Assembly (NCBI RefSeq): GCF_900114435.1
Contig: NZ_FOZK01000002.1
Coordinates: forward strand, 248,001 to 312,000
DNA length: 64,000 nt
Reading direction: 5' to 3'
Origin: Halomicrobium zhouii
GTDB lineage: Archaea > Halobacteriota > Halobacteria > Halobacteriales > Haloarculaceae
Shown here: positions 3,327-32,100 of the stretch, piece after piece
How the letters are laid out: every line of letters starts with the position of its first letter
Numbering within the stretch: the first letter of the stretch is position 1
The notes under the pieces: model-generated
Database searches by the model: none
What the model was told of the DNA's origin: nothing
The model's input: only the letters and a program-made list of their open reading frames with translations
Program-made: the position numbers and the translations under genes

Positions 3327-3637
3327 ATGAGTCACAACGAGAGCAAGCACGTCCAGACGGAGTTGAGCGAGGACGAGTACGAACGGTTCCGAACGTTTGC
3401 AGAGGAACACGGCCTCTCCCTCGAAGAGGCCGGCCACGAGTCCGTGCTCGAGTGGATCGAACGCCAGCAGCAGGCCGATCCCAACGACCGGGCGTTTACC
3501 GTCCTCGACGAACTCGACTCGGATCGAGCCCGGAGACAGCACCGACGGACGCACGGACCGAGGACGACCTCGTCGACGAATGGCACGGGAGTGACGAGGC
3601 CTTCACGCTCGCCGACGACCCATCCTCCCAGACCTGA
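3327..3637 (+). pseudogene. Antitoxin gene, frameshifted
   Basis: The first about 60 codons encode a typical haloarchaeal antitoxin of PIN-type TA pairs (HVQTELSEDEYERFRTFAEE, then GHESVLEWIERQQQADPNDR). The expected C-terminal tail (TEDDLVDEWHGSDEAFTLAD) is present but in the next frame, so one frameshift lies between about 3505 and 3530. The stop at 3635-3637 sits just before the toxin start, as in intact pairs. Confidence 0.7.
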
Positions 3638-4948: not shown

Positions 4949-5009
4949 GGGTCGATGGTCCAGCGGTCCACGATCCGTGCCTTGGATGCACGGGATCCTC
5001 GTCGACCCA
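4949..5009 (+). tRNA. tRNA-Pro(TGG)-like, T-arm absent
   Basis: A perfect 7-bp acceptor stem (GGGTCGA 4949-4955 with TCGACCC 5002-5008, then A) encloses a D-arm (GGTC with GATC) and an anticodon arm CGTGC-CTTGGAT-GCACG with anticodon TGG. Between the anticodon arm and the 3' acceptor strand there are only about nine bases (GGATCCTCG) instead of a variable loop plus T-arm, so the molecule is 61 nt. Either a deletion has killed it or it is a minimal tRNA-like RNA. It lies four bases before tRNA-Ser(GCT). Confidence 0.6.
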
Positions 5010-5013
5010 TCGA

Positions 5014-5100
5014 GCCGCGACTGGGTATCGGTGAACCCAACAGCCTGCTACGCTGTAGCCGGTTTCTCTCGGCATCCCGGTTCGAATCCGGGTTGCGGCG
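5014..5100 (+). tRNA. tRNA-Ser(GCT)
   Basis: Acceptor GCCGCGA/TTGCGGC plus G73. D-stem GGG/CCC, anticodon arm ACAGC-CTGCTAC-GCTGT (GCT), long variable arm GCCG...CGGC and T-arm CCCGG-TTCGAAT-CCGGG. It is a complete class II tRNA. It starts 4 bases after the Pro-like tRNA and is separated from the next tRNAs by the IS630-type insertion. Confidence 0.88.
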
Positions 5101-5126
5101 TCCCGCTGAGCGACAGCGAAGTGGTT

Positions 5127-6264
5127 CGAGAGAGCTTTAGTTACAGACACAACTTTTGAACGTCGAGGAAGCGGTCCATCCACGATTCGGCGAAGCTGAG
5201 TCGTTCAGCGATGGTTTCGAAACGGTCGACGATGAGACGGTGCCAGGTTTCGAGATCTGACGCTTCACGCGGTGAGAGGTCGCGCTTCAACGTTTTCCAG
5301 ACCTGCTCGATTGGGTTTAAGTCGGGAGCGTAGCGCGGGAGCCGCACCCGGCGAATGTCGAGCCGATCTGCAACGTTGTCGACATAGTCAGCAAAATGAG
5401 ACGAAAAGTTGTCGCAGATCAGAATGATTGGCCGGTCAGGGTTCTTCTCGCGGATCAGATCGAAAAAACTCCCCGACGGATTCTTTGGAGACGTCCGATT
5501 TGCATTCGGCGACACTCTCACCGTTGAGTGCGTAAAACCCGAGCGTCGGATCGTCGGTAGTTGCCGTCGGCGTTTCTTTACAAATCGTCGGCGAGCCGAA
5601 GGCCCAGAGTCGCTGACGGTTTTCCGTCGGTTGCGGCCAGGCTTCGTCGAGGAACCCGACGACGTAGCCGCCGTCCGGGACGGGTTCGTCGTTATGGAGT
5701 TCGTCGATCGCGTCCTGTAACCGTTCGGAGAGACGCTCTTCGGCGTCGTCCGGCCGGTCCGGATCTCGTGGCCGTGGTTTGGCGAAGTTCATTCCAAAAT
5801 TACTGAGTAGTCGGTGAACGTGACGATCTGAATAGGTAACTCCAAACGCTTCTTCGATGAGCGTTTTGACCTCGCGCTTGGTCCACGGCTGGTCGGCTTC
5901 AAGCACGGATTTCAATTCGTCACGCTGTTCGTCGGAAAGCTTTGGCGGTCGACCGCCGCCAAAATCAGGGTCGAGACCGCCGATTCCGGCCTCGTTCCAA
6001 CGATCCGCCCAGCGACCGGCGGTCGGTCGTGAGACACCGACGCGCCGTCCGGCCTCTTTTAAAGAATCGCCTTCGTAGAGATTCCTGATCAGGCACAAGC
6101 GCCGCACACGGCGTGGTTTTCCGGCTTCCTGAGCGTCATCGATCGCGGCGTCTAACTCGTCGGGCGAGAGGTGGCGTTCAACAGATTTGCGTCGATCGCC
6201 CGGCATACGTCAGTTTTCGAACGCTAGAGGTTCAAGGGTTTCGGCGGATACTATCGCTCTCTCG
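5127..6264 (-). mobile_element. IS630-family insertion sequence inside the tRNA array
   Basis: A transposase gene on the minus strand is bounded by an imperfect terminal inverted repeat: CGAGAGAGC (5127-5135) followed by TTTAGT, against GCTCTCTCG (6256-6264) preceded by ACTATC. About 1.14 kb is the normal size for the family. IS630 elements duplicate TA, but I do not see a clear TA pair at these borders, so the exact ends are uncertain by a few bases. It separates tRNA-Ser(GCT) from the other Ser tRNAs. Confidence 0.75.
5141..6206 (-). CDS. IS630-family DDE transposase, split by a frameshift at a T6 tract
   Basis: The upstream frame (6206 to about 5465) holds two HTH segments (SLKEAGRRVGVSRPTAGRWA; REVKTLIEEAFGVTYSDRHV) and the first catalytic Asp (FLDEAWPQP). 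The downstream frame (about 5465 to 5141) holds the second Asp (LICDNFSSH) and the Glu (DLNPIEQVWKTLKR). They overlap around GAG-TTT-TTT-C, where moving by one base joins GEFF to DLIREKNPD. Either one T was gained and the copy is dead, or the full enzyme is made by frameshifting. Together they give a normal-length protein. Confidence 0.8.
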
Positions 6265-6270
6265 TCATCC

Positions 6271-6334
6271 CGAAAATCTTCGATTTTCGGACGACGGGGC
6301 TCGGAAGACGAGCGAAGCGAGTCTTCCTGAGCGA
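6271..6334 (+). repeat. Hairpin pair upstream of the Ser/Leu tRNA block
   Basis: CGAAAATC (6271-6278) pairs with GATTTTCG (6282-6289), and GGAAGAC (6303-6309) pairs with GTCTTCC (6321-6327) around GAGCGAAGCGA. The second is repeated almost exactly at about 6703-6728 and in altered form at 4671 and 8928. Confidence 0.55.
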
Positions 6335-6416
6335 GGTGAGACAGGCAGACGGGTGACTGCGCTCGATTCGAAATCGAGAGCCGCGAGGCTTCTGGGTTCG
6401 ACTCCCAGTCTCACCG
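6335..6416 (+). tRNA. tRNA-Ser(CGA)
   Basis: Acceptor GGTGAGA/TCTCACC plus G73, anticodon arm CTCGA-TTCGAAA-TCGAG (CGA), variable arm AGCC-GCGA-GGCT and T-arm CTGGG-TTCGACT-CCCAG. Position 8 is C rather than the near-invariant T, and the D-arm is shifted (GCAG...CTGC), so tertiary folding may be atypical. Confidence 0.82.
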
Positions 6417-6418
6417 TC

Positions 6419-6505
6419 GGCGGGATTCCCCTAGCCTGGCCAAGGGGCCGTGCTGGAACCACGGTGCCCGCACAGGGCACGGGCGTTCGAATCGCCCTTC
6501 CGCCG
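6419..6505 (+). tRNA. tRNA-Ser(GGA)
   Basis: Acceptor GGCGGGA/TTCCGCC plus G73, D-stem CCCC/GGGG, anticodon arm CCGTG-CTGGAAC-CACGG (GGA), variable arm and T-arm GGGCG-TTCGAAT-CGCCC. It follows tRNA-Ser(CGA) after two bases, so the block must be co-transcribed. Confidence 0.88.
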
Positions 6506-6507
6506 TT

Positions 6508-6589
6508 TCCGCGGTAGCCAAGTGGCCGAAGGCGGCGAGCTTAAGACTCGCTACGTAGGCATTCGAGGGTTCGAATCCCTCCCGCGGAA
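6508..6589 (+). tRNA. tRNA-Leu(TAA)
   Basis: Acceptor TCCGCGG/CCGCGGA plus A73, T8-A9, D-stem GCC/GGC, anticodon arm GCGAG-CTTAAGA-CTCGC (TAA), a long variable arm and T-arm AGGG-TTCGAAT-CCCT. It starts two bases after the previous tRNA. Confidence 0.88.
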
Positions 6590-6593
6590 CTGC

Positions 6594-6677
6594 ACCGCCA
6601 TGCCCGAGTGGCCCAAGGGGCACGGCTGAGGGCCGTGTGTGCGAAGGCACGCCCAGGTTCGACTCCTGGTGGCGGTA
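6594..6677 (+). tRNA. tRNA-Leu(GAG)
   Basis: Acceptor ACCGCCA/TGGCGGT plus A73, D-stem CCC/GGG, anticodon arm CACGG-CTGAGGG-CCGTG (GAG), a variable arm with GTGC/GCAC and T-arm CCAGG-TTCGACT-CCTGG. It is a complete class II tRNA. Confidence 0.88.
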
Positions 6678-6773
6678 TGCCGAGCGAAAGCGAGGCACAC
6701 CTCGGAAGACGAGCGGAGCGAGTCTTCCGGCGGCATGCCGGCACATCACCGGCTTCGGAATCATCCCCTCTGC
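6678..6773 (+). repeat. Spacer with repeated GGAAGAC hairpin
   Basis: It contains TGCC-GAGCGAAAGCGA-GGCA, a second copy of the GGAAGAC...GTCTTCC hairpin (about 6703-6728), and GGCATGCC and CCGG...CCGG palindromes. There is no coding sequence. Confidence 0.5.
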
Positions 6774-6856
6774 GTCGCCGTACTCAAGTGGTCAACGAGA
6801 TGTGGCTCAGAACCACTGGCGTAGGTCCTACCCAGGTTCGAATCCTGGCGGCGACA
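6774..6856 (+). tRNA. tRNA-Leu(CAG)
   Basis: Acceptor GTCGCCG/CGGCGAC plus A73, T8-A9, D-stem CTC/GAG, anticodon arm GTGG-CTCAGAA-CCAC (CAG; outermost pair T-T), a long variable arm and T-arm CCAGG-TTCGAAT-CCTGG. Confidence 0.85.
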
Positions 6857-7148
6857 TTCGCACCGGCCGGTGCGCTGGAGTCACAACCAGCCACCTTCGA
6901 TGGTGTCAGTACCGGAGAGATAGACGGCTGACAACGGTCGGTGCGTCCCTGTCGAATCGACCCCCTCACCAGCAGACTGGGTCGAGTGGGAGGGATACTT
7001 CGTCTGACACTTACAGACGGCGAGCGAGAGCTCCCAGTCCCGAGGGTGAGATGCCTCGGTGTAAGCCGGTGGAGCAATCCGTCGGCCAAACAACCCCCTC
7101 CCACGGTTTTCCCCAGTTCCAGTGAGGAGCGATGCTCTCGCATAGTTA
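6857..7148 (+). repeat. tRNA-array spacer with palindromes
   Basis: There is no gene. A 16-base palindrome CGCACCGGCCGGTGCG follows tRNA-Leu(CAG) at about 6860-6875. CGTCTG and CAGACG form a hairpin at about 7003-7021. A further tRNA may have decayed here, but I cannot fold one. Confidence 0.4.
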
Positions 7149-7220
7149 CTTCCCGTGGTCCAGTGGCCACGACGCCTCCCTGTAGAGGAGGAGACGCACG
7201 TTCAAATCGTGCCGGGGAGA
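7149..7220 (+). tRNA. tRNA-Tyr(GTA)
   Basis: Acceptor CTTCCCG/CGGGGAG plus A73, with the archaeal identity pair C1-G72. D-stem GTC/GAC, anticodon arm CCTCC-CTGTAGA-GGAGG (GTA) and T-arm GCACG-TTCAAAT-CGTGC. A hairpin GGCGCAC-ACGC-GTGCGCC follows three bases later. Confidence 0.88.
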
Positions 7221-7342
7221 CTCGGCGCACACGCGTGCGCCAACTGGTATTGGATCAATCACGCCCTGTCGATACTAGATCGACTCCGCGAAGCGATTCG
7301 GTCCTCTCGCCGATGACCCCCGAAGTGGGCGAGGCTTGCAGT

Positions 7343-7415
7343 GCTCCTGTGGAGTAGTGGCCAAACTCACGGCCCTCTCAAGGCCGAGCCTCCGGTTCAA
7401 ATCCGGACTGGAGCA
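7343..7415 (+). tRNA. tRNA-Glu(CTC)
   Basis: Acceptor GCTCCTG/CTGGAGC plus A73 with one T-T mismatch, D-stem GAG/CTC, anticodon arm CGGCC-CTCTCAA-GGCCG (CTC) and T-arm TCCGG-TTCAAAT-CCGGA. The 122-base spacer before it (7221-7342) holds only a hairpin at its start. Confidence 0.82.
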
Positions 7416-7418
7416 TGC

Positions 7419-7491
7419 TGGCAGGCGGTCCAGTGGAGTGGACGCGCCGCTGACTTCGGCGAGAGCGCAGGTTCGAGTCCTGCCCTGCCAA
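7419..7491 (+). tRNA. tRNA-Val(GAC)
   Basis: Acceptor TGGCAGG/CCTGCCA plus A73, D-stem GTCC/GGAC, anticodon arm CGCCG-CTGACTT-CGGCG (GAC) and T-arm GCAGG-TTCGAGT-CCTGC. Positions 8-9 are CG instead of TA/TG, and loop positions 37-38 are TT, both unusual. Confidence 0.82.
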
Positions 7492-7494
7492 TTT

Positions 7495-7566
7495 GGGTAT
7501 GTAACTCTGGTGGTAGAGAGTCCGCTAATAGCGAAGTCGTCGAAGGTTCGAGTCCTCTCGCACCCA
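7495..7566 (+). tRNA. Degenerate tRNA, anticodon loop shortened
   Basis: Acceptor GGGTATG/CGCACCC (one A-C mismatch) plus A, T8-A9, D-stem ACTC/GAGT, and a T-loop TTCGAGT with a weak T-stem. Between the D- and T-arms there are 20 bases, three short of normal. The best stem there is CGCT-AAT-AGCG with a 3-base loop, so no standard anticodon can be read. It is probably non-decoding. Confidence 0.55.
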
Positions 7567-7570
7567 TTCT

Positions 7571-7641
7571 GGACGCATGGTCCAAGGGCAGGACACCGCC
7601 CTCACAAGGCGGTAGTCGAGGTTCGAGTCCTCGTGCGTCCA
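7571..7641 (+). tRNA. tRNA-Val(CAC)
   Basis: Acceptor GGACGCA/TGCGTCC plus A73, T8-G9, D-stem GTCC/GGAC, anticodon arm CCGCC-CTCACAA-GGCGG (CAC) and T-arm CGAGG-TTCGAGT-CCTCG. It is followed at 7644-7663 by a 7-bp hairpin TGGACGG-CACACA-CCGTCCA. Confidence 0.88.
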
Positions 7642-7713
7642 CTTGGACGGCACACACCGTCCAGCGTAGAGGCGCTATAGCCGAGAGAATCTCCACTTCT
7701 CTCATTCACAGAT

Positions 7714-7787
7714 GCGCTAGTAGTCGGGTTTGGTCAGGACGCCGGCCTTCCAAGGCGGAAGCCCAGGTTCAACACCAGCCTAGATCA
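7714..7787 (+). tRNA. Degenerate tRNA-Gly(TCC)
   Basis: Acceptor GCGCTAG/CTAGATC keeps five of seven pairs. The D-arm is GTC/GAC, and the anticodon arm CCGGC-CTTCCAA-GGCGG (TCC) has one mismatch. The T-arm CCAGG-TTCAACA-CCAGC has two mismatches and a non-consensus loop. It is likely defective as a decoding tRNA. The preceding spacer (7642-7713) also holds GAGAA-TCTCCAC-TTCTC, perhaps a lone anticodon arm. Confidence 0.55.
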
Positions 7788-7789
7788 GT

Positions 7790-7862
7790 GGGCCTGGAGC
7801 CTATGAGGACAGGCACGCGGCTTTTAACCGCACGATAGCGGGTTCGAATCCCGTCGGGCCCT
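7790..7862 (+). tRNA. tRNA-Lys(TTT)
   Basis: Acceptor GGGCCTG/CGGGCCC (one wobble), D-stem GCCT/AGGC, anticodon arm GCGG-CTTTTAA-CCGC (TTT; outer pair C-A) and T-arm GCGGG-TTCGAAT-CCCGT. Position 8 is G and the discriminator is T; both deviate from the archaeal consensus. Confidence 0.78.
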
Positions 7863-7927
7863 TCGAGTCGCGGTGGCAGAGTAGTTGAGCAATCTTCGCT
7901 GTCCAGCGGCAAGACGACTGCAGGAGT

Positions 7928-8000
7928 GCTCCCTTGGTGTAACTGGACAACACGCGGGCCTTTCGAGCCCGAACGCCGGGTTCGATTCCCGGAGGGAGTA
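7928..8000 (+). tRNA. tRNA-Glu(TTC)
   Basis: Acceptor GCTCCCT/AGGGAGT plus A73, T8-G9, D-stem GTGT/ACAC, anticodon arm CGGGC-CTTTCGA-GCCCG (TTC) and T-arm CCGGG-TTCGATT-CCCGG. The long Y-RNA-like hairpin begins two bases after it, so tRNA 3'-end maturation would create that RNA's 5' end. Confidence 0.88.
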
Positions 8001-8002
8001 TT

Positions 8003-8075
8003 GGTGGAACGATGGCGAACCTTGGAGCAACCGGCTAGAACAGCTAGCGAATCCAAGTTCGGACATCGTTCCACC
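8003..8075 (+). ncRNA. Long bulged hairpin, candidate Y-RNA-like RNA
   Basis: The two ends pair perfectly over 12 bp (GGTGGAACGATG 8003-8014 with CATCGTTCCACC 8064-8075). Above a 1x2 internal loop, CGAAC (8016-8020) pairs with GTTCG (8057-8061). C8021 is bulged, and TTGGA (8022-8026) pairs with TCCAA (8052-8056). The apical region holds GCTAG (8034-8038) paired with CTAGC (8044-8048). A terminal stem with a single bulged C is the known Ro-binding shape of Y RNAs, and a Ro60 gene lies 1 kb downstream on the same strand. Expression is untested. Confidence 0.5.
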
Positions 8076-8354
8076 GAGTCTTCGAGGCGGTCCTTCGCCA
8101 GGATGTCGTCGAGGTGGCGAGATACTTCGTTTCCACTCTGGACACGGCCAGGCCAAGTCGGCCTGCGCCCTCGCCGCCAACTTTCCGGCGTCCTTGCGAA
8201 CGATCGACCTGGCAGAACGCTGTAGCACGGTACGCTGACGGCGTCCTGATCGCCGCTGGACACGACCCAACTGGGTGGTCGTCGAGACGGAGCGTTCCTT
8301 CTATCAGGCATCTCAGTGGGTTCAAGTCCCATCGGTAGGCCGTCCGGTCTCTCG
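8076..8354 (+). repeat. Array spacer with tRNA T-arm fragment
   Basis: No complete tRNA folds here. At about 8315-8335, GTGGG-TTCAAGT-CCCAT is a perfect T-arm without matching acceptor or anticodon arms. Several short stems occur, for example ACGACC with GGTCGT near 8264-8284. It looks like debris of former tRNA units. Confidence 0.45.
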
Positions 8355-8723
8355 TTATGTCCGGACAAAGGGGTCAGTCCCTGACACCGGACACCGCTCC
8401 GTCGGTTTTCCGGCCACCCTTCACTCATCCACGGCGACCGTCGAGTCGGAGCGATACTCCAGTGGTCAACGCGGGTTCGAATCCCGCCGGGAGGCCGAAC
8501 GGCCTGCTGTATCGTCCAGACAAAAGGAACGCCCCGACAATGGACACCGCTCTGGCGATTTTCCGGTCGCCGACATTCATCAACCAGGTGGCCGTCCATC
8601 TGGAGCGATACTTCGCCTGTGGAGCGAGAGATCTGGGTTCGAATCCCGGGAGCGGACCGACCGCTCTGGTGTAACTTGGTAGCACGCTATCGTTCGCTCC
8701 AGTAATTTTCCGGCCACCGTCCT
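8355..8723 (+). repeat. Two decayed tandem units of the tRNA-Arg leader
   Basis: The word TTTTCCGG recurs at 8406, 8559 and 8706, each within a conserved block (GGACACCGCTC... before, CCACC or CGCCG after). The third block leads into the intact tRNA-Arg(TCG). The first two lead into truncated tRNAs that keep a T-arm (GCGGG-TTCGAAT-CCCGC near 8475; CTGGG-TTCGAAT-CCCGG near 8640) but no anticodon arm. Spacing is 153 and 147 bases, so a leader-plus-tRNA unit was tandemly amplified and then decayed. Confidence 0.6.
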
Positions 8724-8798
8724 GTCCCCGTAGCTCAGCCAGGACAGAGCACTGGCCTTCGAAGCCAGGTGTCGCACGTTCGAATCGTGCCGGGGACG
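8724..8798 (+). tRNA. tRNA-Arg(TCG)
   Basis: Acceptor GTCCCCG/CGGGGAC plus G73, T8-A9, D-stem GCTC/GAGC, anticodon arm CTGGC-CTTCGAA-GCCAG (TCG) and T-arm GCACG-TTCGAAT-CGTGC. All conserved positions are canonical. Confidence 0.92.
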
Positions 8799-9049
8799 TG
8801 TGCTGCGAGCGATAGCGAGCAGTCGAGTCCCACCAGGATTCGAACCCTGGAAGTCGCAGTCCCGGAACGGCGCTCTGCGCCGCATGCCCGGAACGTCTTC
8901 CTCTGGTTCGAATTCCGGAAGACGGCGACGCCGTCTTCCGGCCTTCGCGAAGCTTCTGCTTCGCTCAGTCCTGCCGGGGACGTCTACCGCTCACGAATGC
9001 CGTGAGCGGCCACCCTTCGGGGTCGCCTCTTGCGGCCCCGGTGATAGCA
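8799..9049 (+). repeat. Hairpin-rich leader between the tRNA array and the Ro60 gene
   Basis: It contains a reversed T-arm-like sequence (CCAGGATTCGAACCCTGG near 8832) and the hairpin family member GGAAGAC...GTCTTCC (8928-8950). Two stems lie next to the Ro60 start: CCGCTCACG (8987-8995) with CGTGAGCGG (9001-9009), and GGGGTCGC with GCGGCCCC (about 9020-9040). GGTGA lies just before the ATG and would be hidden by the second stem, which suggests translational control (inference). Confidence 0.5.
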
Positions 9050-10573
9050 ATGCGATTCAACGACACCACACAGACGGTCGCGGAGGCGACGCGAACCACC
9101 AACCACGAGGGCGGTGAAGCGTTCGACCCCGCCGACCCACGACTCGCCCTGTACAAGCGCACGATCAACCAGCTGCTGGAGGACTCGTATTACGAGGACG
9201 ACGAGGAGCACCTCGATGCAGTCGTCGAACGGTTCGACGCGGCCGCGGACGAGGATCCCGAGTTCGTCCTGCAGCTCGCCGCCTACGCGCGCCAGGAGCT
9301 GTACCTGCGGGACGTTCCGCAGCTCCTGCTCGTGCTCGCCGCGAACGACGACCGGTTCAAGGACGACTCCGACGAGTCGCTGATCCGCGAGTGGGCGCCC
9401 GCCATCGTCCAGCGGATGGACGAGACGGCGACGGCGCTGGCCGTCCACGACGAACTGTTCGGCGGGACGGCACCGTGGCCGCTCCGGCGTGGGATCGAGG
9501 ACGCCCTCGTCGGGATGGCCGACGCGTACACGCTCGGCAAGTACGAGCTCTCGCGGCACGAGGTCACGCTCCGGGACGTGTTCAACCGCGTCCACCCGAC
9601 GCCCGTCGACGAGGAACAGGAAGTCCTGTTCGAGCGGTTCATGCGCGGTGATCTGGACGACTATCCGGACGTCGAGGCGCTGCCGTCGCCGAAGACCTGG
9701 GAGACGGTCGTCTCCGAGCGTGGGAACACGCAGGAGGCCTGGGAGACGCTAATCGAGGACGACGAGTACTCGCTGCCGATCTTCGCGTCGATCCGGAACC
9801 TGCGGAACATGCTCGAGACCGGCGTCGACGAGGAAGTCATCGTCGACCACCTCGACCTGGAGGCGGTGCGCCAGGCGCCGCTGTACCCGTTCCGGTACTA
9901 CCAGGCCTACGAGGCCCTCCAGGATGCCGGGATCGACGCGCCCGACGTCGAGCGGTGGCTGGAGCAGGCCATCGACGTCTCCGTCGAGCACGTCCCCGAC
10001 GGCCTCGGCGACACGTTCGTCGGCGTCGACCTCTCCGGGTCGATGGACATGGTGCTCTCGGAGCACAGCACGCTCCGGTACAAGGAGATCGGGGCGCTGT
10101 TCGGTGCGGTGCTGGCCGACCAGGGCGCCCGGGTCGGTGGGTTCGGTGACGACTTCCGCGAGGTGTCGATGCACGTCGACACGCCGATTCTCCAGCGCCA
10201 GGACGCCGTGCTCGGTATCGACGACGACGTCGGGAACTCGACGAACGGCTGGAAGGTACTGGAGTCCCTCCGCGAGGAGGCCATCGCCGTCGAGCGAGTC
10301 GTCCTGTTCACGGACATGCAGATCTGGGACTCGACGTACTTCGGAACCGACCGGACGGTTCGCGAGGAGTTCGAGGTGTACCGTGACGAGGTCGCCCCCG
10401 ACGCGTCGCTGTACATGATCGACCTGGCGTCGTACGGCGACCTCGTGACCCCCGAGGGGTACGAGGGCGTCTACAACGTCTCGGGCTGGTCCGAGAACGT
10501 CCTCGAGTTCATCGAGCACGCGGAAGACACGACGCAGATCATCGACGAAATCGGTGCCGTCGAACCGACCTGA
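9050..10573 (+). CDS. Ro60-like TROVE-domain RNA-binding protein
   Basis: 507 residues. The first about 310 form an alpha-helical HEAT-like TROVE ring (QLLEDSYYEDDEE, FVLQLAAYARQELYLRDVPQ). The rest is a von Willebrand A domain with the MIDAS motif DLSGSM at about residue 327 and a later TDMQIWDS acid. Ro proteins bind misfolded small RNAs in the ring and Y RNAs on its outer face, and in bacteria act with RNA-processing enzymes. The gene follows the tRNA array in the same direction and is followed by another tRNA, so a shared transcript is likely. I chose the ATG at 9050 because homology begins there. Confidence 0.88.
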   Translation: MRFNDTTQTVAEATRTTNHEGGEAFDPADPRLALYKRTINQLLEDSYYEDDEEHLDAVVERFDAAADEDPEFVLQLAAYARQELYLRDVPQLLLVLAANDDRFKDDSDESLIREWAPAIVQRMDETATALAVHDELFGGTAPWPLRRGIEDALVGMADAYTLGKYELSRHEVTLRDVFNRVHPTPVDEEQEVLFERFMRGDLDDYPDVEALPSPKTWETVVSERGNTQEAWETLIEDDEYSLPIFASIRNLRNMLETGVDEEVIVDHLDLEAVRQAPLYPFRYYQAYEALQDAGIDAPDVERWLEQAIDVSVEHVPDGLGDTFVGVDLSGSMDMVLSEHSTLRYKEIGALFGAVLADQGARVGGFGDDFREVSMHVDTPILQRQDAVLGIDDDVGNSTNGWKVLESLREEAIAVERVVLFTDMQIWDSTYFGTDRTVREEFEVYRDEVAPDASLYMIDLASYGDLVTPEGYEGVYNVSGWSENVLEFIEHAEDTTQIIDEIGAVEPT

Positions 10574-10600
10574 ACGAGATCTCTTTCTTCGATTCGTCGC

Positions 10601-10675
10601 GCGTGAGTAGTGTAGCCTGGCCCATCACGCGGCCCTGCCACGGCCGAGACGAGCGTTCGAATCGCTCCTCGCGCA
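10601..10675 (+). tRNA. tRNA-Gly(GCC)
   Basis: Acceptor GCGTGAG/CTCGCGC plus A73 (one T-G wobble), T8-A9, D-stem GTG/CAC, anticodon arm CGGCC-CTGCCAC-GGCCG (GCC) and T-arm GAGCG-TTCGAAT-CGCTC. It lies 27 bases after the Ro60 stop. Confidence 0.9.
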
Positions 10676-10734: not shown

Positions 10735-11019
10735 ATGGCAATTTCCCACGATCGCACTGACTCGACAGCGACAGCTATCGTCTCGGTCCGGATCCCCAGC
10801 AGCGGGGACGACCTCACCACGGACGCGGAAAATCGTCTCGCCCGGACAGACGGCGTCGTGAGTGTCGCCGTCGACGGGTTGCGCGGACTCGAACCGGGGC
10901 TCTCGGCGACTGTCGTGACCGTCGAGGTGACGATAACGCTCCGCACAGACGTTGCCAGGGGTGAATTGCGAGAGCGGCTCGCTGCCGCCCCTGGCGTCGA
11001 GAACGTTAGCGTCCCGTAA
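10735..11019 (+). CDS. Small protein with a possible ferredoxin-like (beta-alpha-beta) fold
   Basis: 94 residues with alternating strands and helices (TAIVSVRI; DDLTTDAENRLARTDGVVSV; ATVVTVEVTITLR; ARGELRERLAAAPGVENVSV), the pattern of ACT/HMA-like small domains, but without a CxxC metal site. A very strong Shine-Dalgarno sequence (GGAGGTGA) precedes the ATG, which is unusual in haloarchaea, where many mRNAs are leaderless. This fits internal translation from the tRNA-Gly/Ro60 transcript. Function is unknown; it may be a partner of Ro60. Confidence 0.65.
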   Translation: MAISHDRTDSTATAIVSVRIPSSGDDLTTDAENRLARTDGVVSVAVDGLRGLEPGLSATVVTVEVTITLRTDVARGELRERLAAAPGVENVSVP

Positions 11020-17343: not shown

Positions 17344-18152
17344 GAGATAGTACTGACTCGATCGACCGACGTACTGCCATTCGAACACTCCTCGCGAGTA
17401 GCGCGATAGCTCTCGCAGGCTGTAACGATTCGAGCAGCATCGCACAGTCGAACCCGCTCACGAACGTCAGCGTAACCGACACGACGCTCGTCGTGGAGTT
17501 CGACGCCGACGCATCGATAGACGAGATAACTGTGATCCAGCCCGATGGCGAAGCGTTCGCCAGTCGGTCCGTCACGTCGGGGTCCTCGAAGGTGACTATC
17601 GACATCGGGACGCAGTACTCGCCAGGTGAGTACACCGTTCACGCCCTGGACGGCGAGGAGACGACCGGCGAGCGAACGCTCACCCTCAGTCCGGACGTCC
17701 AGATTACTGACCTCAAACTCGGGCGTAATCATCCAGACGAGATGTACGAGGATGCTAACGTCCTGGCTGTCCAAGCAGAGACTATTTTGACGGTTGAAAA
17801 CACTGGTACAGGACCTAATTCGGTTACACAGTTATTGTTCGAAGGTGACGTTCCCCAGCCGACAAACAAAGATACAGACAAGAGCTGGATATACGACACG
17901 TCGTCCGGTGTCGGCGGAGATGTCGACAGAATCGTGATTCCACCAGGAGAATCAACTACGATTTACAGCACATCACGTCCGTTCACAGCAGCGAGTTCGA
18001 ACGTATCGTGTAGTTCAGACGGAGAAGAGGGACAATTTACAGCAATCGTTCGCCTTGAAATCGGGAAGACGCTTCGGCAGCAGTATGACGTGGAATATAC
18101 TGGTCAGGAATTGGTCGACTGCAACATTACAGTATCCGGCGCCGAGCAATGA
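17340..18152 (+). CDS. Tat lipoprotein of the secretion operon
   Basis: 270 residues. A twin-arginine lipoprotein signal (DRRTAIRTLLASSAIALAGC) is followed by an Ig-like beta-rich ectodomain. The start ATG overlaps the preceding TGA. From about 17750 the DNA becomes clearly more A/T-rich than the first half, suggesting the C-terminal domain was replaced, perhaps because it faces phages or partner cells. Function unknown; likely an accessory of the channel. Confidence 0.65.
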   Translation: MRDSTDSIDRRTAIRTLLASSAIALAGCNDSSSIAQSNPLTNVSVTDTTLVVEFDADASIDEITVIQPDGEAFASRSVTSGSSKVTIDIGTQYSPGEYTVHALDGEETTGERTLTLSPDVQITDLKLGRNHPDEMYEDANVLAVQAETILTVENTGTGPNSVTQLLFEGDVPQPTNKDTDKSWIYDTSSGVGGDVDRIVIPPGESTTIYSTSRPFTAASSNVSCSSDGEEGQFTAIVRLEIGKTLRQQYDVEYTGQELVDCNITVSGAEQ

Positions 18153-19291
18153 TGGATGTCTCACTCGTTGACGTTGGGATCGAGTGGTTCAAAGATATAA
18201 TCGAAGCCGTAACGCGATGGTTCCAACAAGGGTTAGGTGATGGATATAGTGCCCTGACAAACGAACTCTTTGGCACACCAACCCCGGAGACCGATGGCCC
18301 ATTCGTCTTCGGATCGCCGACGAATGAACCCTGGGTTGGGATTCACGACGCGCTCGTTGCTGGGGAGATAACAGCACTCTCGCTCCTGCTGCTGGTTGTT
18401 TGTGTCCAGGCACGACACACCATCTCGATCTTCAACCTCGGAACGACGTACGAGGCACGACGGACGAAGAAGGTCGCCTGGGCCGGCGCCTTCCTCATTT
18501 TCGCCTGGTACTGGATAGCCGCTGTCTCTCTGTACGTAGTAGATGCCCTCACAATTGCTCTAATACCAGAGCTAGGAGTATTGCTGAACGCGATGGTTGA
18601 CTTCTTCGCTACCCCGATACCGAACCCTGTACTCGGACTCCTGATGGCTGGTATCGGCGGGTTCGCGATGTGGGTGCTCCAGGCGCTACTCTTCATCCGC
18701 GACGTCCTCCTGTTCGTCTTCATCTACGGGATGCCGATAGGGTTCGCGCTGGTGTACGGCAATCTCCCGGTCCTCTCGCGGATCGCGAAGTCGGTCTGCA
18801 TGCGGTTCGTCCCACTCCTGATCATGCCAGTTCCGATAGCGCTCATCTTCTCCGGCTACGAGCTGGTGTTCCACGAGGGGACAAGCGCCACACTCGCACC
18901 GGGAGTCATCTTCCTCCAGCACTTCGTTGCTGTCTCGCTTCCCGTGCTATCAGTCATCGTCGTCTGGAAACTGTTCCAGTACGCCTCGCCACTCGCGACA
19001 AGCGCTGCTGGGACGGCCGCTAGGGCGACGTTCAAAGTCGGCGCTATCCTCGGGGCAGGGTACCTCGCAGGACCAAAGGTCGCAGGAACGGCGGCACGCT
19101 GGGGACCGAAAGTCGCCGCTGGGCAGGCCTTCGCACAACGGGTGGGTAATACGTCCAACGGGGAATCCCCGAAGTCTGAAAGTGCGAAGCCTGCTGGTGG
19201 AACGAAACAAGACTCGGTCGCGACGGACGCCTACGGGCAACAGGGCGTCGCGACCTATCGACGCACAGAGAACGATCCGGGGTACTACTGA
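18149..19291 (+). CDS. VirB6/TrbL-like polytopic membrane protein
   Basis: 380 residues with an N-terminal amphipathic segment, then about six to seven transmembrane helices between residues 70 and 300 and a hydrophilic C-terminal tail. Size, topology and place between exported components and the ATPase match VirB6-type channel proteins. The start ATG overlaps the lipoprotein stop (ATGA). Its first about 200 bases share the lower GC of the lipoprotein gene end. Confidence 0.65.
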   Translation: MMDVSLVDVGIEWFKDIIEAVTRWFQQGLGDGYSALTNELFGTPTPETDGPFVFGSPTNEPWVGIHDALVAGEITALSLLLLVVCVQARHTISIFNLGTTYEARRTKKVAWAGAFLIFAWYWIAAVSLYVVDALTIALIPELGVLLNAMVDFFATPIPNPVLGLLMAGIGGFAMWVLQALLFIRDVLLFVFIYGMPIGFALVYGNLPVLSRIAKSVCMRFVPLLIMPVPIALIFSGYELVFHEGTSATLAPGVIFLQHFVAVSLPVLSVIVVWKLFQYASPLATSAAGTAARATFKVGAILGAGYLAGPKVAGTAARWGPKVAAGQAFAQRVGNTSNGESPKSESAKPAGGTKQDSVATDAYGQQGVATYRRTENDPGYY

Positions 19292-22508: not shown

Positions 22509-23614
22509 TTAATCAGAATTGAGACTTCGACTGGGCTGTAAGACATTCGGCGGCAATCCAGGAACGTGATATTCTATTGTTTTGTGGCAGTCGGCACAAA
22601 CAGTTAGAAGGTTGCGATCGGCATTGAACACAGCTGGATTTGTCGACTCTCTGGCGCCGCAGATATGATGGACATGAAGTCGCGTGTCGTTCTTTTCTAG
22701 ATGCTCAGACTGCGTGACTCCACAGATAACACAAATATGCCCATTACGGTTACGTACTCGCTTACGACGCTTTTTCGTCCAGCCAATTCCGTAAATCGGA
22801 TGATCAGTAAGGCGTCGTGTCTCGCTCGGAGAAAAACCGGTTGCCGCGAGTGCTTTGCGCCAACCTCCGAACTCTTGTTGATAAGGACGACGCGAAAATT
22901 CACCATGAGCATCCATCTCGGCGACAGTGGGAGCTTTACCCAAGTCTGCTGCAAGTCTTGTGAGCTCGTCCAGCAATTCTGTTCGGGGAATTGCCAGACG
23001 GTGGTTCCGATCGAGTTCTGCTGCTTGAATTGCGTTATTCCATGTTCCAAATACCCGTTGATATGCTCCTAAGGAAAATTGACCATGTTCCCTGTTTTGG
23101 CAGACAGTAGGTGGTTTTCCCAGATTTTCCTTCAATCTGTGTAGTTCATCAATCAACTCTTCCTCCTCAATACCACTCCGGTTGTGGACGTCAAATCCAG
23201 CGGCCTTCAAGGCATTATTCCAAGAACCGAATGTGCGCTCAAACGTTGCGGTACCATATCGTCCTTCTTTTGCTGCATCAGTGATCGTAGGTGCGTGGCC
23301 GAGAGTGTCGTTTAATCGATTTAATTCTTGAATTAGCTCTTCCTTGTCTACATTGCAGTGGCGATTTGGCTCAAGACCGACGGTTTTGAGAGCCTCGTTC
23401 CACCCCTTGAACTGGCCATAATATGTACCCGCTGAATAGCGAGAGCATGCGTCGAATTCCTCCCTTGTTGGGGTCTTGCCGAGGTCTTCAGCGACCCGTT
23501 TGAGTTCTGTCAGTAGTTGTTCCTTCGATATCGAACCAGGCCGATTTGGAGTCAATCCAATCTCTTGAAGGGCGTCGTTCCAGCATCCGAAACGTCGGAT
23601 ATATACAATTGAGC
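22509..23614 (-). pseudogene. HNH endonuclease gene, 3' part (split by an IS)
   Basis: It encodes four complete homing-endonuclease-associated repeats of about 55 residues (e.g. LGKTPTREEFDACSRYSAGT, then FKGWNEALKTVGLEPN) and a C-terminal HNH nuclease (HICVICGVTQSEH, LHVHHICG, NRNLLTVCADCHKTIE). Reading through 23614 into the IS end adds about 28 foreign N-terminal residues. Joining 25489-25106 to 23606-22509 gives one uninterrupted 494-codon frame, so this is the 3' half of a single gene. The shortened HNH half may still be translated. Confidence 0.8.
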
Positions 23615-23741
23615 GGCTCTGTTGAAATCCTATTTGTTCTACACCTTTTCCGCTGAAACAGCCGTTAGTTAGAACTGCGAATTGATTAGCAACTTTCACT
23701 CAAATTAAAAAACTTATGCTTCCCTGTGTGACGTATTGCAT

Positions 23742-26164: not shown

Positions 26165-29100
26165 ATGGGTGGGCAATCGCGGAAGGTGGTAGCAGTAGCG
26201 CTTTCGATACTCGTCCTGACGGCGACGGTGGCCGGACCGGCCGTCGGGTCGTTACAGACCCAGACCGGGACGGTTTCGGCAGGCAACGCACCGACGATAG
26301 ACGAGAGTCTCTCGCCGTTCGAGCAGAAACAGCGCGCGCTGGAACTGACACGCGATCTGGACCCGCAGCCGGGGATCCAGGAAGAATCGGCCGAGCGTGC
26401 GCAAAAGTACCTCCGGAACAGCAGTGCGAGTTACGAGTATCACGACCCCGTCCGGGTGAAAGACCCGATGACGTTCGAGCGGGACGCGAAAGTCGTCCGT
26501 AATCTCGCGAAGTTCGAGGGAACGAGTTCGGCCGACACCGCGCACCGGTCCGCGAGGCTCGTCGTCTCGGCCGACGACGAGTCCGCCGAACAGGCGATCG
26601 AGGACGCTCGGCGGGCCTACGAGGCGCGCAAGGACACGATGTCGAAGGGCGAGCGCCAGAGTACCAAGGCGCACATCAGGAACGCCGAACGCGCCCTCGA
26701 AAAGTCCCGCGAGGCCCAGGAACGCGCGTCACAGGGATCCCAGCGGTCGCTTTCGTTCGCCGGAATCTCTCTCGACAGCACACTCTCGACGCTCTCCGTG
26801 CAGCAAGCTCCGAAGGGCAAGAAGGGTGGCAAGAACCCGGGGAAGGCGAAGGGCAAGCAGAAGGGGAACAAAAAGGGCAACGGCAAGGACAAGACCGGCA
26901 AGCAGAACGACAAAGCCGAGAAGAAGAACGGGAACGGCGAGAAGAAGGGGAAGGCCAAGGGCAAGCAGAAAGGGAAAGACAAGCAGAAAGGCACGGACAG
27001 GCAGAACGGTAACGGCAAGGCCAAAGGGAAAGACAAGCAGAAAGGCACGGACAGGCAGAACGGTAACGGCAAGGCCAAAGGGAAAGACAAGGGTGGCCCA
27101 GCGGCACCGCCCGAGTCCGAGACGACGCCGAGTCCCACGCCCACTGCGACTGCGACGAGTACGTCATCCGCGACGGAAGTGACCGAGACGAGAACAGAAG
27201 CGACCGCGACGGCTACTACAACCCCTACGCCTACCGCGACCGAGCCGGCTGAAACGGCGACCCAGACCGCGACGCCGACTGCGACGGAGACGCCACAGAC
27301 TCGGGTCCGCGGAAAGAAAGCCTTCAGGCACCGGGCCAACGCGCTCGTCAAACTGAAGATCGCCCTGAAGCAGGCGAATCTGGCGCTCGAACGGATCGAC
27401 GGGGCCAGTAAACCACGAGTCACTATCGAGTCGTCCATCGATCCGGTGTGGCAGGACGGCCAGCCCGACACGTACTACCTGACTGGCAACTACACCGACG
27501 TCGTCGTCGGCGACCCGGAACCCGTCACGGTCACCATCGGCAACCGGAGTCGGACCGTTGAGGTAGTTTCGGCCTCGGACTCGCCGATGGCCAACCAGAC
27601 GTTCCTCGTCGAGGTCGACCGGACCGAACGGGTCACCGAAATCGAGGTGCGCGCACCCGACGGCGAGAACGACCTGAACGGGACCGAATCGCTCGCGCTC
27701 GACGGCGACGGATTGCCCGAACACGTCGAGCGGGAGGTGGGGTCAGATCCACTCGACCCTGACAGCGACGTCCGTGAACTCAACGGCGACCAGGCAGAGG
27801 ACGGCGTCCACGACGGCGCGGCGCTCGCCCGGAGCGACGAATTAGGCGCTATTGTGGAAAACGGAACGTTCCTGAAGCCCACGCCGATCGTTCTGGGCAA
27901 CGACACCGACGGTGACGGGATCGCGGATTCGCGGGAGCGGGCGCTCGGACTCAACGCCTCGAACAACGACACCGACGGTGACGGTATCTCTGACCGCTAC
28001 GAGACCAACGGCGGTGCACACATCGATTCCGACGAAAACGGTGTCCTCGATGCACGTGACACCGACGCAGACGGCGACGGCGTGATCGACGCCTGGGAGT
28101 GGCGCGACGACGTCGACGACGATCTGGCGCCCGGCTACCGCGACCTGGACGACGACGGTGACGGTATCCCGACCGCCATCGAGAAGGCGAACGTCTCCGC
28201 CGACGCCTACGACGTCGACTTCGACGGCGTCTGGAACTGGCGGGACACGGACGCTGACGGTGACGGCATATCCGACGGCGAGGAGGGACTCGTCGACCAC
28301 GACGGCGACGGCGTCCCGGCGTACCTCGACAACGACGCCGACAACGACGGGCTGCCCGACCCGTACGAACGGAACGTCACGCAGACCGATCCCGAGGCCG
28401 TCGACAGCGACTCGGCCCGAACCGGTGTGAACGAGGCCGACGACAACGTCACCGACGGGAACGAGGACTTCGACGACGACGGACTCGTCGCCTTCAACGA
28501 GTACCGGTTTGGAACGGACCCCTTCGAGAGCGATTCTGATGGGGACGGACTCAACGACGCCTTCGAGGTACGACTCCAGGGGCTCGATCCGCTCGACGCC
28601 GATTCGGACGGCGACGGCGTGACCGACGGCGCGGAGGACCCCGACAACGATACCCTCTCGAACGAACGCGAAGCGTCACTCGGGACGCATCCTCTTCACA
28701 ACGACACGGATGCGGACGGGCTTCCAGACGGCACAGAAGTCGACCAGTACGGGACGAACGCGACGGATCCCGACACCGACGGCGACGGACTCTCCGACAG
28801 CGACGAACTCGCGGTCGGCACCGATCCGCTGGTCGCCGACACGGACGGCGACGGCGTCCGCGACGGCAACGAGACCTTCGAGACGACCGCGTCCGAGGAA
28901 TCGACGGGCGTGTCGGTGACGGTCGCCGGCGAGGGCAATCTGGCGAAGAACGTCACGATATCGCCGACGCCCGAATATCACAACGGCACGGCGGCGAGCG
29001 CCGGCCCGACGGTCTACGTCGACGCTCGAAGCGATTCGGCCAACGGGACGATATCGCTCCCCGTCGCGGCGGACGCCGACGGCGAGAACGTCACCGTGTT

Positions 29101-32100
29101 CGCGCGCTCGGCCGACGCGAACGGAACCTGGAAAGCGGTCGAGACGACGGTCAACGAGAGTGCGGGTACCGCGACGGCGACGCTCGACTCGAACGCCTTC
29201 GTCACGGTGTTGAACGAGTCGGCCTGGAACGCCGGCACCAGCGAACCCGAGTTACCCGCGACGGACACCACCGCCAGCAACGTCACGTGCGGCGAGACGT
29301 GTGAACTCGGCGGTGGCTCGCTCGTCATCGGTGACGTCGGATCTACCACTCGGGGTGCGTCCGTCTCGAAGTCCGGATTCGGAGCAGGCTCTGGCGGCGT
29401 GTCGATCATGGGCGGACACCACCACCGTCAGGACCACGATTGTGACGGCATTCCCAACTACAGGGACAACGACATCGACCCCAGCCAGTGTGACGACGAG
29501 TCAGACGACGACTCGGACGGTTCTGGTGACGACTCGGACGATTCAGACGACGGTGGTTCGATTGGAACTCCCGGCGGGAATATGGACGATGACGGTGACG
29601 GCGTCCAGAACATGGACGACAACTGCGTGGCGGACCCGAATCCGGGACAGCAGGATCTTGATCTCGATGGACGAGGAGACGAGTGTGACGACGACATCGA
29701 CGGCGACGGATTAGACAACGACGAAGATCCCGATCCGAGAGATCCGGACAACCCCTCCATGACAGACGAGGACGGGTTGGACGAAGACGAGGAGCAACAG
29801 TACGGAACGGACCCGACAGAACCCGACACCGACGGTGACGGACTCGATGACGGCGACGAGGTCTCGGGTGAGACGGACCCGCTCGACGCCGACACGGACG
29901 ACGACGGCGTCGAGGACGGCGAAGACGGCTGTCCGACCACTAAAGGCGCCGCAGACAACGGCTGTCCCGTCGAGGGCGCGGGCATCGTCACGACGTCGTT
30001 CGACGAGGCCGAGCGCCTCGTCGCCGACCTGGCCTACGAAGCCGAGTCCTACGGGTACTACTCCGACGTCGAACTCACGATCAGCGGCGAGGGGTCGAGC
30101 GAGACCATCCAGCTCGGGAGCACGGCCGGTCGGACCACCACCGAGCGCATCGACGTCTCCGAGTACGCCGGCGAGACGGTCACGTTCCGCTTCGAGACGC
30201 GCGGGGCGCGGGCGTCCATCGACTCCTTCGACGTCCAGGCCGACGCGGACGGCGACGGCATCTGGAACCACGTCGAAGACCAGACCTGGTACCACCCCAA
30301 GACCGGGAACCGATTCACGACCGACGCCTACAGCGTCGACTCCGACGGCGACGGCCTCGACGACGACGAAGAGGTCCGCTTCGCTAAGCGCGGCGGCTCG
30401 TGGGAGATCGTCGACTCCACGTCGGACCCCTCCAGGGTCGACTCCGACGGTGACGGGCTGACGGACCGCGAGGAAATCGGTGAGCGCGAGATTCGCATCA
30501 TCGACAGCAAGCGCGACGCCAAGCAGTTCATGGCCGCACTGGGTCAGGGTGGCGACACGTCCGCGTACGTCAGTTCCCCCGACGTCACGTCGGACCCGAC
30601 CCGCGCGCATTCGGACCGCGACGGCCTCGACGACGCGACCGAGCGCGACCTCGGCACCGACCCGGAGAGAGAGGACACTGACACCGACGGCGTGGACGAC
30701 GGCCGCGAGATGCAGATCGGCGAGGACCCGACGGTCCACGACTACCGCCCGCCGTCGCTGAACGTCCGCTACTCGTCCGTCTCCAGTTCACAGGGGAGCG
30801 CGAAGACGTTCTACAGAGTCGGCTTCGACGCGCAGGACTACTTCGGTCTCGCCCGCGTCGCGGTCAAACACAACGACAAGGTCAAGTTCGAGCGCACGCC
30901 GGGCGACGACGACGGCCACTCGTACAACGTCGAGTACAAGACGTTCCTGGCGCAGTCGCTCATCGACGCGACGAAAGGGGCGGCGACGCGGGTCGTCCTG
31001 AAAGACGCCCACGGGAACCAGCGGACGAAGGTCGTCATGCAGCGCGACGTCGCGTTCGTCCAGATCGCCGAGCAGTTCGGCGCGCCGATGGATTCCTCGG
31101 GCGTCGCGTACAGTCTGGGCCTGCTCTCTGGCGTGAGCGTCGGCGCTGGTCAGACCGCGGGGACGGTCAAAGCACTCGTCTCGGATCCGGTGGGGTACGC
31201 CGAGTCGATGGCGAAAATCGTCGAGGTGGTCGAGCACCTCGACCAGCCTGGCCGGCTCATCGAGGCGATGGCCGACGGGTTCGAACAGCAACAACGGCTC
31301 GCGAATCCCTACGACTTCGACGACGAGCGCGAACTGTACGAAGAGTTCCGGACGAGCTACTACACGGGGATGGTCGCGTTCGAAGTGCTGAAAACAGCGG
31401 CCGGCGCCTCGGCGACCAAGGCAGCGAAGAGTAGCTCGAAGCTGTCGAAACTGACGGACAAACTCAGCACGCCGAAACTCCGCAAAGCCGGGAAGCTGTT
31501 GATGAAAGGTCAGGACAAGCTTCACGCGCCCGGCCGGTACGCGAAAACGCGGCTCGTGATGAAGCTGTCCGACAGCGCAGAACTCACGTCGAGTGCGGCG
31601 CGGCGGGTCATCGACAGTTCGACTCTCGGAAAGACGCTACACAAGAAGTACCTCTACAAGCGGCTGGACGTCGACACGAGCGACCTGAGCGAGGCAGAGC
31701 AAGCGGCGCTGAACGACTATCTCGACGAGACCGGTCGCGACGGCGTCTGGCTGGCGAACAAGTACGACGACGAGTTCCGCGAGATGCTCACGCCGACCTG
31801 TCGCGTCGGCTCACTCCGTGCAGGGGCAGTTGGTGGTAGCTCGCTCGGCTCAGACCGGTTCCACAGTGTGGGCGGACCGCAGGCAACGCTCAGCGCTGGC
31901 AGTTGTGACCCAGACATCGACGGTCTCGACGCAGATGGCGCCCGCCGGATTCGAGAGCTGCAGAATCGCGGCGTGCTCGACGACGATGACGTCCGTCAGT
32001 TGCTGCAGGTGATCGACGAGGGCGCTGATATCGAGAAAGATGATGTTCGGACGGCGCTGAAGCGCGTCGAGATGTTGGATAGCGACGGACATGAAGTACT

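Follow-up and report, generated by a model that had tools for sequence, protein, structure and literature searches.

Y RNAs are small RNAs bound by Ro60 proteins and are known in animals, bacteria and phages. In the closest described system, that of bacterial Rsr/Ro60 and YrlA (Rfam family RF02553), the Y RNA gene lies immediately upstream of Ro60, and the RNA has a two-stem design and carries a T arm, an acceptor-like hairpin and a D arm in permuted order. Bacterial Y RNAs have been tied to tRNA damage through the Salmonella rsr-yrlBA-rtcBA operon, the roles of Rsr and its Y RNAs themselves lying outside that study (Hughes et al. 2020, PMC7790460). Here we describe a 64,000-nt stretch of the haloarchaeon Halomicrobium zhouii (assembly GCF_900114435.1, contig NZ_FOZK01000002.1, positions 248,001 to 312,000; hereafter the window), in which a Ro60/TROVE gene follows a dense array of tRNA genes and is preceded by five putative Y RNA units. 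The locus shares with the bacterial system all of the above features, and with the Salmonella operon Ro60, tRNA-mimicking Y RNAs and the context of tRNA damage. It differs from bacterial YrlA in being archaeal, in the tandem arrangement of up to five units set among tRNA genes, in an extra anticodon-like hairpin and in a score below the Rfam cut-off.

The association of array and TROVE gene is already known, since the position of the array in the whole genome (C2:253014-258675) matches a table row of Morgado & Vicente 2019 (H. zhouii CGMCC 1.10457, FOZK01000002.1, 253014-258675, 14 tRNAs) and 20 of 29 archaeal tRNA clusters in that work, found in a mobile context, contain a TROVE gene (PMC6333295). 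The main text of the same paper differs from the present description in that no mention of Y RNAs, hairpins, conserved loss of U8 or the 94-residue protein was found in it. The Y RNA-like sequence lying between the array and Ro60 is what is new here; a search of the open-access literature returned no account of Y RNAs in archaea, and because closed papers were outside the scope of that search the novelty is provisional.

Y RNA-like units upstream of Ro60

A relaxed Rfam search gave an unexpected single YrlA match at 8613-8719 (25.9 bits, E = 0.0098, model positions 1-114 of 114). Read by eye, the region follows a repeated plan consisting of an outer stem S1, a 5′ loop TCGAG, an inner stem S2, a variable head, S2′, a 3′ loop ending in TTTTC, and S1′. 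A scan for this plan returned exactly five units (Table 1; scores 18.8-20.3), while all other sequence of the window and its reverse complement stayed below 17. Across loci, 102 units were collected; one measures 186 nt, and the others fall into two size classes, of about 75-93 nt and 131-151 nt. Among 74 distinct units the S1 and S2 pairs are kept far above shuffled controls through many sequence changes, a test that is biased upwards because the unit finder itself scores pairing. Less biased checks are the inner helices of alignment A1, which were not selected on, and a genome-wide model search, which is a separate test. For the last unit, pairing holds in 98.8% of cells as against 34.8-52.8% when the strands are slid by 1-3 columns, 13 pairs have changed on both sides, and the acceptor-like helix of A1 (helix 5), outside the selection, contains three compensated pairs. 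An end-paired stem, a conserved internal loop and an inner stem, as in YrlA-type RNAs, are all present.

The head of the last unit runs from an anticodon-like arm through a T arm, a sealed acceptor-like hairpin, U8 and N9 to a D arm, and so resembles an apparently complete, circularly permuted tRNA whose chain is open between anticodon arm and D arm and sealed at the acceptor. For unit 5 of the window, the order of T arm, acceptor-like hairpin and D arm is found both with a full-length covariance model and in cross-domain alignments; the RNAalifold consensus backs these three elements and partly predicts the anticodon-like hairpin. Columns that are invariant among ten aligned RNAs of archaeal, phage and plasmid origin correspond, in tRNA numbering assigned by us, to U8, G10, A14, a D-loop G, A21, U33, G53, T54-T55-C56-G57-A58 (TTCGA) and C61.

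A covariance model, R1, derived solely from haloarchaeal sequences (18 copies of the last unit), was searched in 391 Halobacteria genomes, hits with E < 1e-6 being counted as strong. All 116 strong hits lie upstream of Ro60 on the same strand, 30-882 nt away, and they accompany 43 of the 44 full-length copies of Ro60 (Fisher p about 1e-55), the lone copy without one being the second copy of SHR40, with an in-frame stop. R1 units are present in 40/40 haloarchaeal genomes with closely related full-length Ro60, and none of the 344 haloarchaeal genomes without Ro60 gives a strong hit. Three genomes with divergent Ro60 (53-54% identity) have weaker upstream matches in which the same motifs are visible. 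Outside the haloarchaea, RNAs matching R1 lie immediately upstream of Ro60 on a Deinococcus plasmid (E = 2.3e-10) and in phages, namely Xanthomonas phage Olaya (9.5e-14), a Brevundimonas phage (1.6e-13) and Caulobacter phages; at the Deinococcus, Brevundimonas and first Caulobacter loci YrlA independently matches the same sites. R1 matches were obtained at five of five Ro60 loci from another archaeal family within the same phylum, upstream of Ro60 or of its conserved first residues (E-values for a small search space; weakest matches 18.6-20.5 bits), with no array on the short stretches covered. One further locus (L093) contains Ro60 and Y units with zero tRNAs. Judged by such gene neighborhoods, Ro60 keeps more strictly to the Y RNA set than to the array tRNAs.

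Several observations weigh against this assignment. The window copy of unit 5 has two competing registers of S2, the complete tRNA mimic is found in the last unit type only, and short units such as 8101-8193 lack the order of T arm, acceptor-like hairpin and D arm. R1 matches in the non-haloarchaeal archaea are weaker (18.6-31.9 bits), and real tRNAs also give weak R1 matches, to about 29 bits, because the T arm contributes score. Rfam YrlA matches the last unit of the window and, among five further loci scanned, that of four (24.6-32.4 bits in other haloarchaeal loci), but the 25.9 bits of unit 5 fall short of the RF02553 gathering score of 69, as do the 29.9-42.3 bits of the Ro60-adjacent Y RNAs of phages and the plasmid; we therefore call the units YrlA-like and not members of RF02553. 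Unlike in the Salmonella repair operon, no RtcB or RtcA gene stands beside the window locus, the RtcB matches of the genome (C3:115676 and C2:912980) being far from the locus at C2:253-259 kb.

Taken together, the identification of the units as YrlA-like Y RNAs is well supported, because of the covarying two-stem plan, the alignment with YrlA, strong R1 hits that in Halobacteria lie only upstream of Ro60, and the matches in phages, a plasmid and other archaea. The archaeal units are most likely homologous to the bacterial Ro60-YrlA system and most likely work like it. The link between Ro60 and RNA put forward in the original prediction is thus kept, and would now run through dedicated Y RNAs, whereas the protection or checking of the array tRNAs themselves, also proposed there, is at present hypothetical. 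The long hairpin after tRNA-Glu was also considered as the Y RNA itself and was rejected, as it does not have the S1-loop-S2 plan; most homologous loci have a hairpin of differing sequence at the same site before the Y block (z about −2.6 to −8.7).

The protein partner is confirmed, at the level of a predicted structure, as a genuine Ro60 ring protein. PF05731 matches it with 79.9 bits (E = 2.9e-22; Pfam cut-off 23), a search of NCBIfam gave no match, and its AlphaFold2 model (pLDDT 76) shows the ring of HEAT repeats and the vWA domain. The top 13 Foldseek matches are all Ro60 structures, including those of Thermus phage phiLo, Xenopus, human and Deinococcus.

Some phage annotations, of tRNA-Ser and tRNA-Gln, together with a tRNA-Asp called by ARAGORN, overlap Y RNA matches beside Ro60 (L128 2658-2732, L107 4966-5033 and L162 2517-2591). 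To judge from this overlap, such tRNA features beside Ro60 are likely misannotated Y RNAs. In addition, Brevundimonas phage Kikimora has a permuted tmRNA about 2 kb downstream of Ro60 (L128 6233-6578), and the Deinococcus plasmid has a tmRNA upstream of Ro60 (L124 883-1232).

The tRNA array and its mobile setting

ARAGORN identified 14 tRNA genes within 5.66 kb (5014-10675), a density exceeding two genes per kb and within the definition of a cluster (at least ten tRNAs at no less than this density). Eleven pass the Rfam gathering score in a scan of the window and 13 in a whole-genome search, the exception being Ser(gga). Together with three degenerate copies this gives the 17 tRNA or tRNA-like genes originally counted, interrupted as described by one insertion sequence and Ro60. 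Class II Ser and Leu genes do head the array; the spacing of several of them, given as 2-4 bases, was measured as 1-3 nt. Array, Y units, Ro60 and the gene for a 94-residue protein are on one strand. Of the tRNAs originally taken as broken, the three degenerate copies stand, while the stretches at 6.97-7.12 and 8.10-8.72 kb are better described as Y RNA units.

Table 1. Positions of the array, the putative Y RNA units, Ro60 and neighboring features, counted from the first base of the window
Feature	Position	Strand	Evidence
Degenerate tRNA-Pro(TGG)-like gene, no T arm; decayed in this locus, with tRNA-Pro intact in 26 others	about 4949-5009	+	Inspection
tRNA-Ser(gct), C8	5014-5100	+	ARAGORN
Insertion sequence, helix-turn-helix and DDE_3 transposase open reading frames; sole one within array	5141-6206	−	Domain search
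tRNA-Ser(cga), C8	6335-6416	+	ARAGORN
tRNA-Ser(gga)	6418-6506	+	ARAGORN
tRNA-Leu(taa)	6508-6590	+	ARAGORN
tRNA-Leu(gag)	6594-6677	+	ARAGORN
tRNA-Leu(cag)	6774-6856	+	ARAGORN
Long hairpin directly after tRNA, before Y unit	6859-6949	+	z = −3.6
Putative Y unit 1, most divergent: ACTGGG-TCGAG-TGGGAGGG ... CCCTCCCA-CGGTTTTC-CCCAGT	6974-7119	+	R1 E = 3.8e-5, z = −4.9
tRNA-Tyr(gta)	7149-7221	+	ARAGORN
tRNA-Glu(ctc)	7342-7416	+	ARAGORN
tRNA-Val(gac), C8	7419-7491	+	ARAGORN
Degenerate Ile-like tRNA copy	7495-7566	+	22.9 bits
tRNA-Val(cac)	7571-7642	+	ARAGORN
Degenerate Gly-like tRNA copy	7714-7787	+	20.6 bits
tRNA-Lys(ttt), G8	7790-7862	+	ARAGORN
tRNA-Glu(ttc)	7927-8001	+	ARAGORN
Long near-perfect hairpin abutting tRNA-Glu(ttc) 3′ end	8002-8077	+	z = −7.0, 0/200
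Putative Y unit 2, short type, no T arm	8101-8193	+	R1 E = 5.5e-8
Putative Y unit 3, with T arm	8274-8418	+	R1 E = 2.4e-13
Putative Y unit 4, with T arm	8433-8571	+	R1 E = 1.5e-13
Putative Y unit 5, YrlA type: S1, TCCAT/TAATTTTC internal loop, S2, permuted tRNA mimic	8587-8718	+	YrlA, RNAalifold, covariation
tRNA-Arg(tcg), few nt 3′ of Y unit 5, ahead of Ro60	8723-8799	+	ARAGORN
Ro60/TROVE protein, 507 aa, MIDAS motif DLSGSM	9050-10573	+	PF05731
tRNA-Gly(gcc), directly 3′ of Ro60; same placement in 32/40 loci	10601-10675	+	ARAGORN
94-aa protein, no known family, predicted ferredoxin-like	10735-11019	+	After tRNA-Gly
TrbL_3 (TrbL-like) protein	18149-19288
HNH-repeat protein	22509-23696
2131-aa open reading frame	26165-32560
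Family B DNA polymerase	35054-37156

By sequence comparison the array tRNAs are foreign: they are mostly 83-96% identical to the same tRNAs of other arrays and 51-73% identical to host tRNAs of the same anticodon, with Glu(ttc) as the exception. In phages, matches to array DNA are limited to 52-73 nt on single tRNAs. The deviation at position 8 noted originally in several copies recurs in other arrays, where Ser(gct) has C8 in 29/34, Lys has G8 in 13/15 and Glu(ttc) has G8 in 34/37 copies, as against U8 in 36 of 38 host tRNAs; in the window C8 is found in Ser(gct), Ser(cga) and Val(gac), and G8 in Lys. Further conserved isoacceptors without U8 are Gln (G8), Asn (mostly A8) and Val(gac) (C8) of the arrays in L063-L102. 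From this recurrence the odd position 8 is genuine and not random decay. Outside the array, the host tRNAs examined included no tRNA-Leu(TAA), although the search possibly missed one.

A second genome with the Ro60-array association, named at the outset as decisive, was readily found: 40 homologous loci were collected from haloarchaea. For 35 of them, 6 kb or more of upstream sequence was covered; five or more tRNAs occur in 33 of these and ten or more in 28, a tRNA density far above chance. The proposal of a mobile RNA locus is likewise borne out, Ro60 and array occurring together in many haloarchaea, often on plasmids, as tabulated clusters also indicate (PMC6333295); close Ro60 homologs lie on eleven haloarchaeal plasmids. 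The window neighborhood (15000-63500) contains mobile-element genes including transposases, and its gene content fits an integrated conjugative element or plasmid. Integration at a tRNA-Pro(ggg) called by ARAGORN at 3437-3515 was rejected, as the call is a false positive inside an open reading frame without Rfam match, and no 16-mer repeat turned up in the window or in either of its two flanks searched. In SHR40 (L085, L098) 12 kb separate two Ro60 copies, of which the copy carrying an in-frame TAG has no Y unit and a single tRNA.

Homologs of the 94-residue protein adjoin Ro60 in most loci (e.g., L066 11691-11972) and are also found in two divergent Ro60 loci (L121, L122), there upstream of Ro60. 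The protein has no match in Pfam, NCBIfam or PHROG, and its Foldseek matches are unspecific.

Proposed function and alternatives

We consider it probable that a mobile cassette of Ro60 and Y RNAs is fused here to a foreign tRNA array, and that Ro60 and the Y RNAs form a ribonucleoprotein for tRNA quality control. The Y units would be co-transcribed with the array tRNAs, and the placement of units and hairpins between tRNA genes suggests trimming by tRNA 5′ and 3′ processing, that is, by RNase P at the 5′ end of tRNA-Arg and by tRNase Z at tRNA 3′ ends. Ro60 would bind the two-stem part of the Y RNA, leaving a protruding tRNA mimic that may gate or steer the particle, which could go on to sort, protect or pass on tRNAs of host or array that are misfolded or damaged. 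In this way a mobile element would supply and quality-check tRNAs for itself whenever those of the host run short or come under attack. The strongest comparative hint for a tRNA role, by analogy, is that unrelated viruses repeatedly carry Ro60 alongside RNA ligases and tRNA genes. Halovirus HGTV-1 encodes a related Ro60 (46% identical), RtcB and tRNA-Asp, and has a candidate minimal Y RNA before an annotated intron-bearing tRNA-Asp (L105 4943-5209; weak R1, 18-20 bits) as well as Y-like motifs within that gene, again with weak R1 scores; Streptomyces phage JustBecause has Ro60 with an RNA ligase, and in Arthrobacter phage Atuin Ro60 lies within a tRNA array. HGTV-1 and the jumbo and actinobacterial phages share with the window Ro60 and tRNA genes, some with RNA ligase, and differ as viral genomes. 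A more specific scheme, in which one Ro60 uses Y RNAs with different tRNA-mimic heads as interchangeable adaptors to fold or screen U8-less tRNAs that the host would reject, and so provides a portable tRNA supply complete with quality control, appears to us doubtful.

That the units near Ro60 are merely decayed or recombined tRNA genes is suggested by their T arms and D-arm-like pieces and by the presence of truly decayed tRNAs in the window (4949-5009, 7495-7566 and 7714-7787). Decay does not account for covarying outer stems, for conserved TCGAG and TTTTC loop motifs, for the same position in dozens of loci and upstream of Ro60 in phages and other archaea, or for the absence of strong hits from genomes without Ro60. 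The broken-tRNA reading of 8.1-8.7 kb is rejected on covariation and coupling to Ro60, and we hold the explanation as a whole to be very improbable.

The two other alternatives accept the Y RNAs and differ in what they would do. The array may consist mainly of phage-style nuclease-resistant or codon-balancing tRNAs, with Y RNAs acting as decoys of tRNA-cutting nucleases and Ro60 only stabilizing them. Foreign array tRNAs, several with conserved loss of U8, would suit such a role, as would the combination of Ro60, tRNA arrays and RNA ligases in phages and the suggestion by Hughes et al. 2020 that YrlA could competitively inhibit an anticodon nuclease (PMC7790460). Against these stand Ro60-Y RNA sets without an array (L093 and, on the short stretches covered, the other archaea), short units without an evident tRNA mimic, and the fact that no tRNA nuclease target was identified, so that we regard a decoy role as rather unlikely. 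Tethering of an exoribonuclease for structured RNA decay, with the array linked only through shared transcription or hitch-hiking, seems a little less likely still. It has a precedent in the Rsr-Y RNA-PNPase complex of Deinococcus (PMC7790460, PMC4726728), and on an Allomeiothermus plasmid an RNB-domain ribonuclease follows Ro60. Beside the haloarchaeal cassette no recurring nuclease gene was recognized, in clusters not annotated singly, and the 94-residue protein alone stands out. To our knowledge haloarchaea also have no PNPase and use the exosome or an RNase R-like enzyme instead, which speaks against the same arrangement.

Implications for Y RNA biology

If the units are indeed Y RNAs, their partnership with Ro60 would be known from all three domains of life, and haloarchaeal laboratories would gain a system in which to test its function. 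Several phage "tRNAs" adjoining Ro60 look like Y RNAs, and their annotations may be corrected. The role of bacterial Y RNAs is a long-standing question, and the link to a mobile tRNA array and to phages that carry Ro60, RNA ligase and tRNAs bears on it by pointing at tRNA supply and repair.

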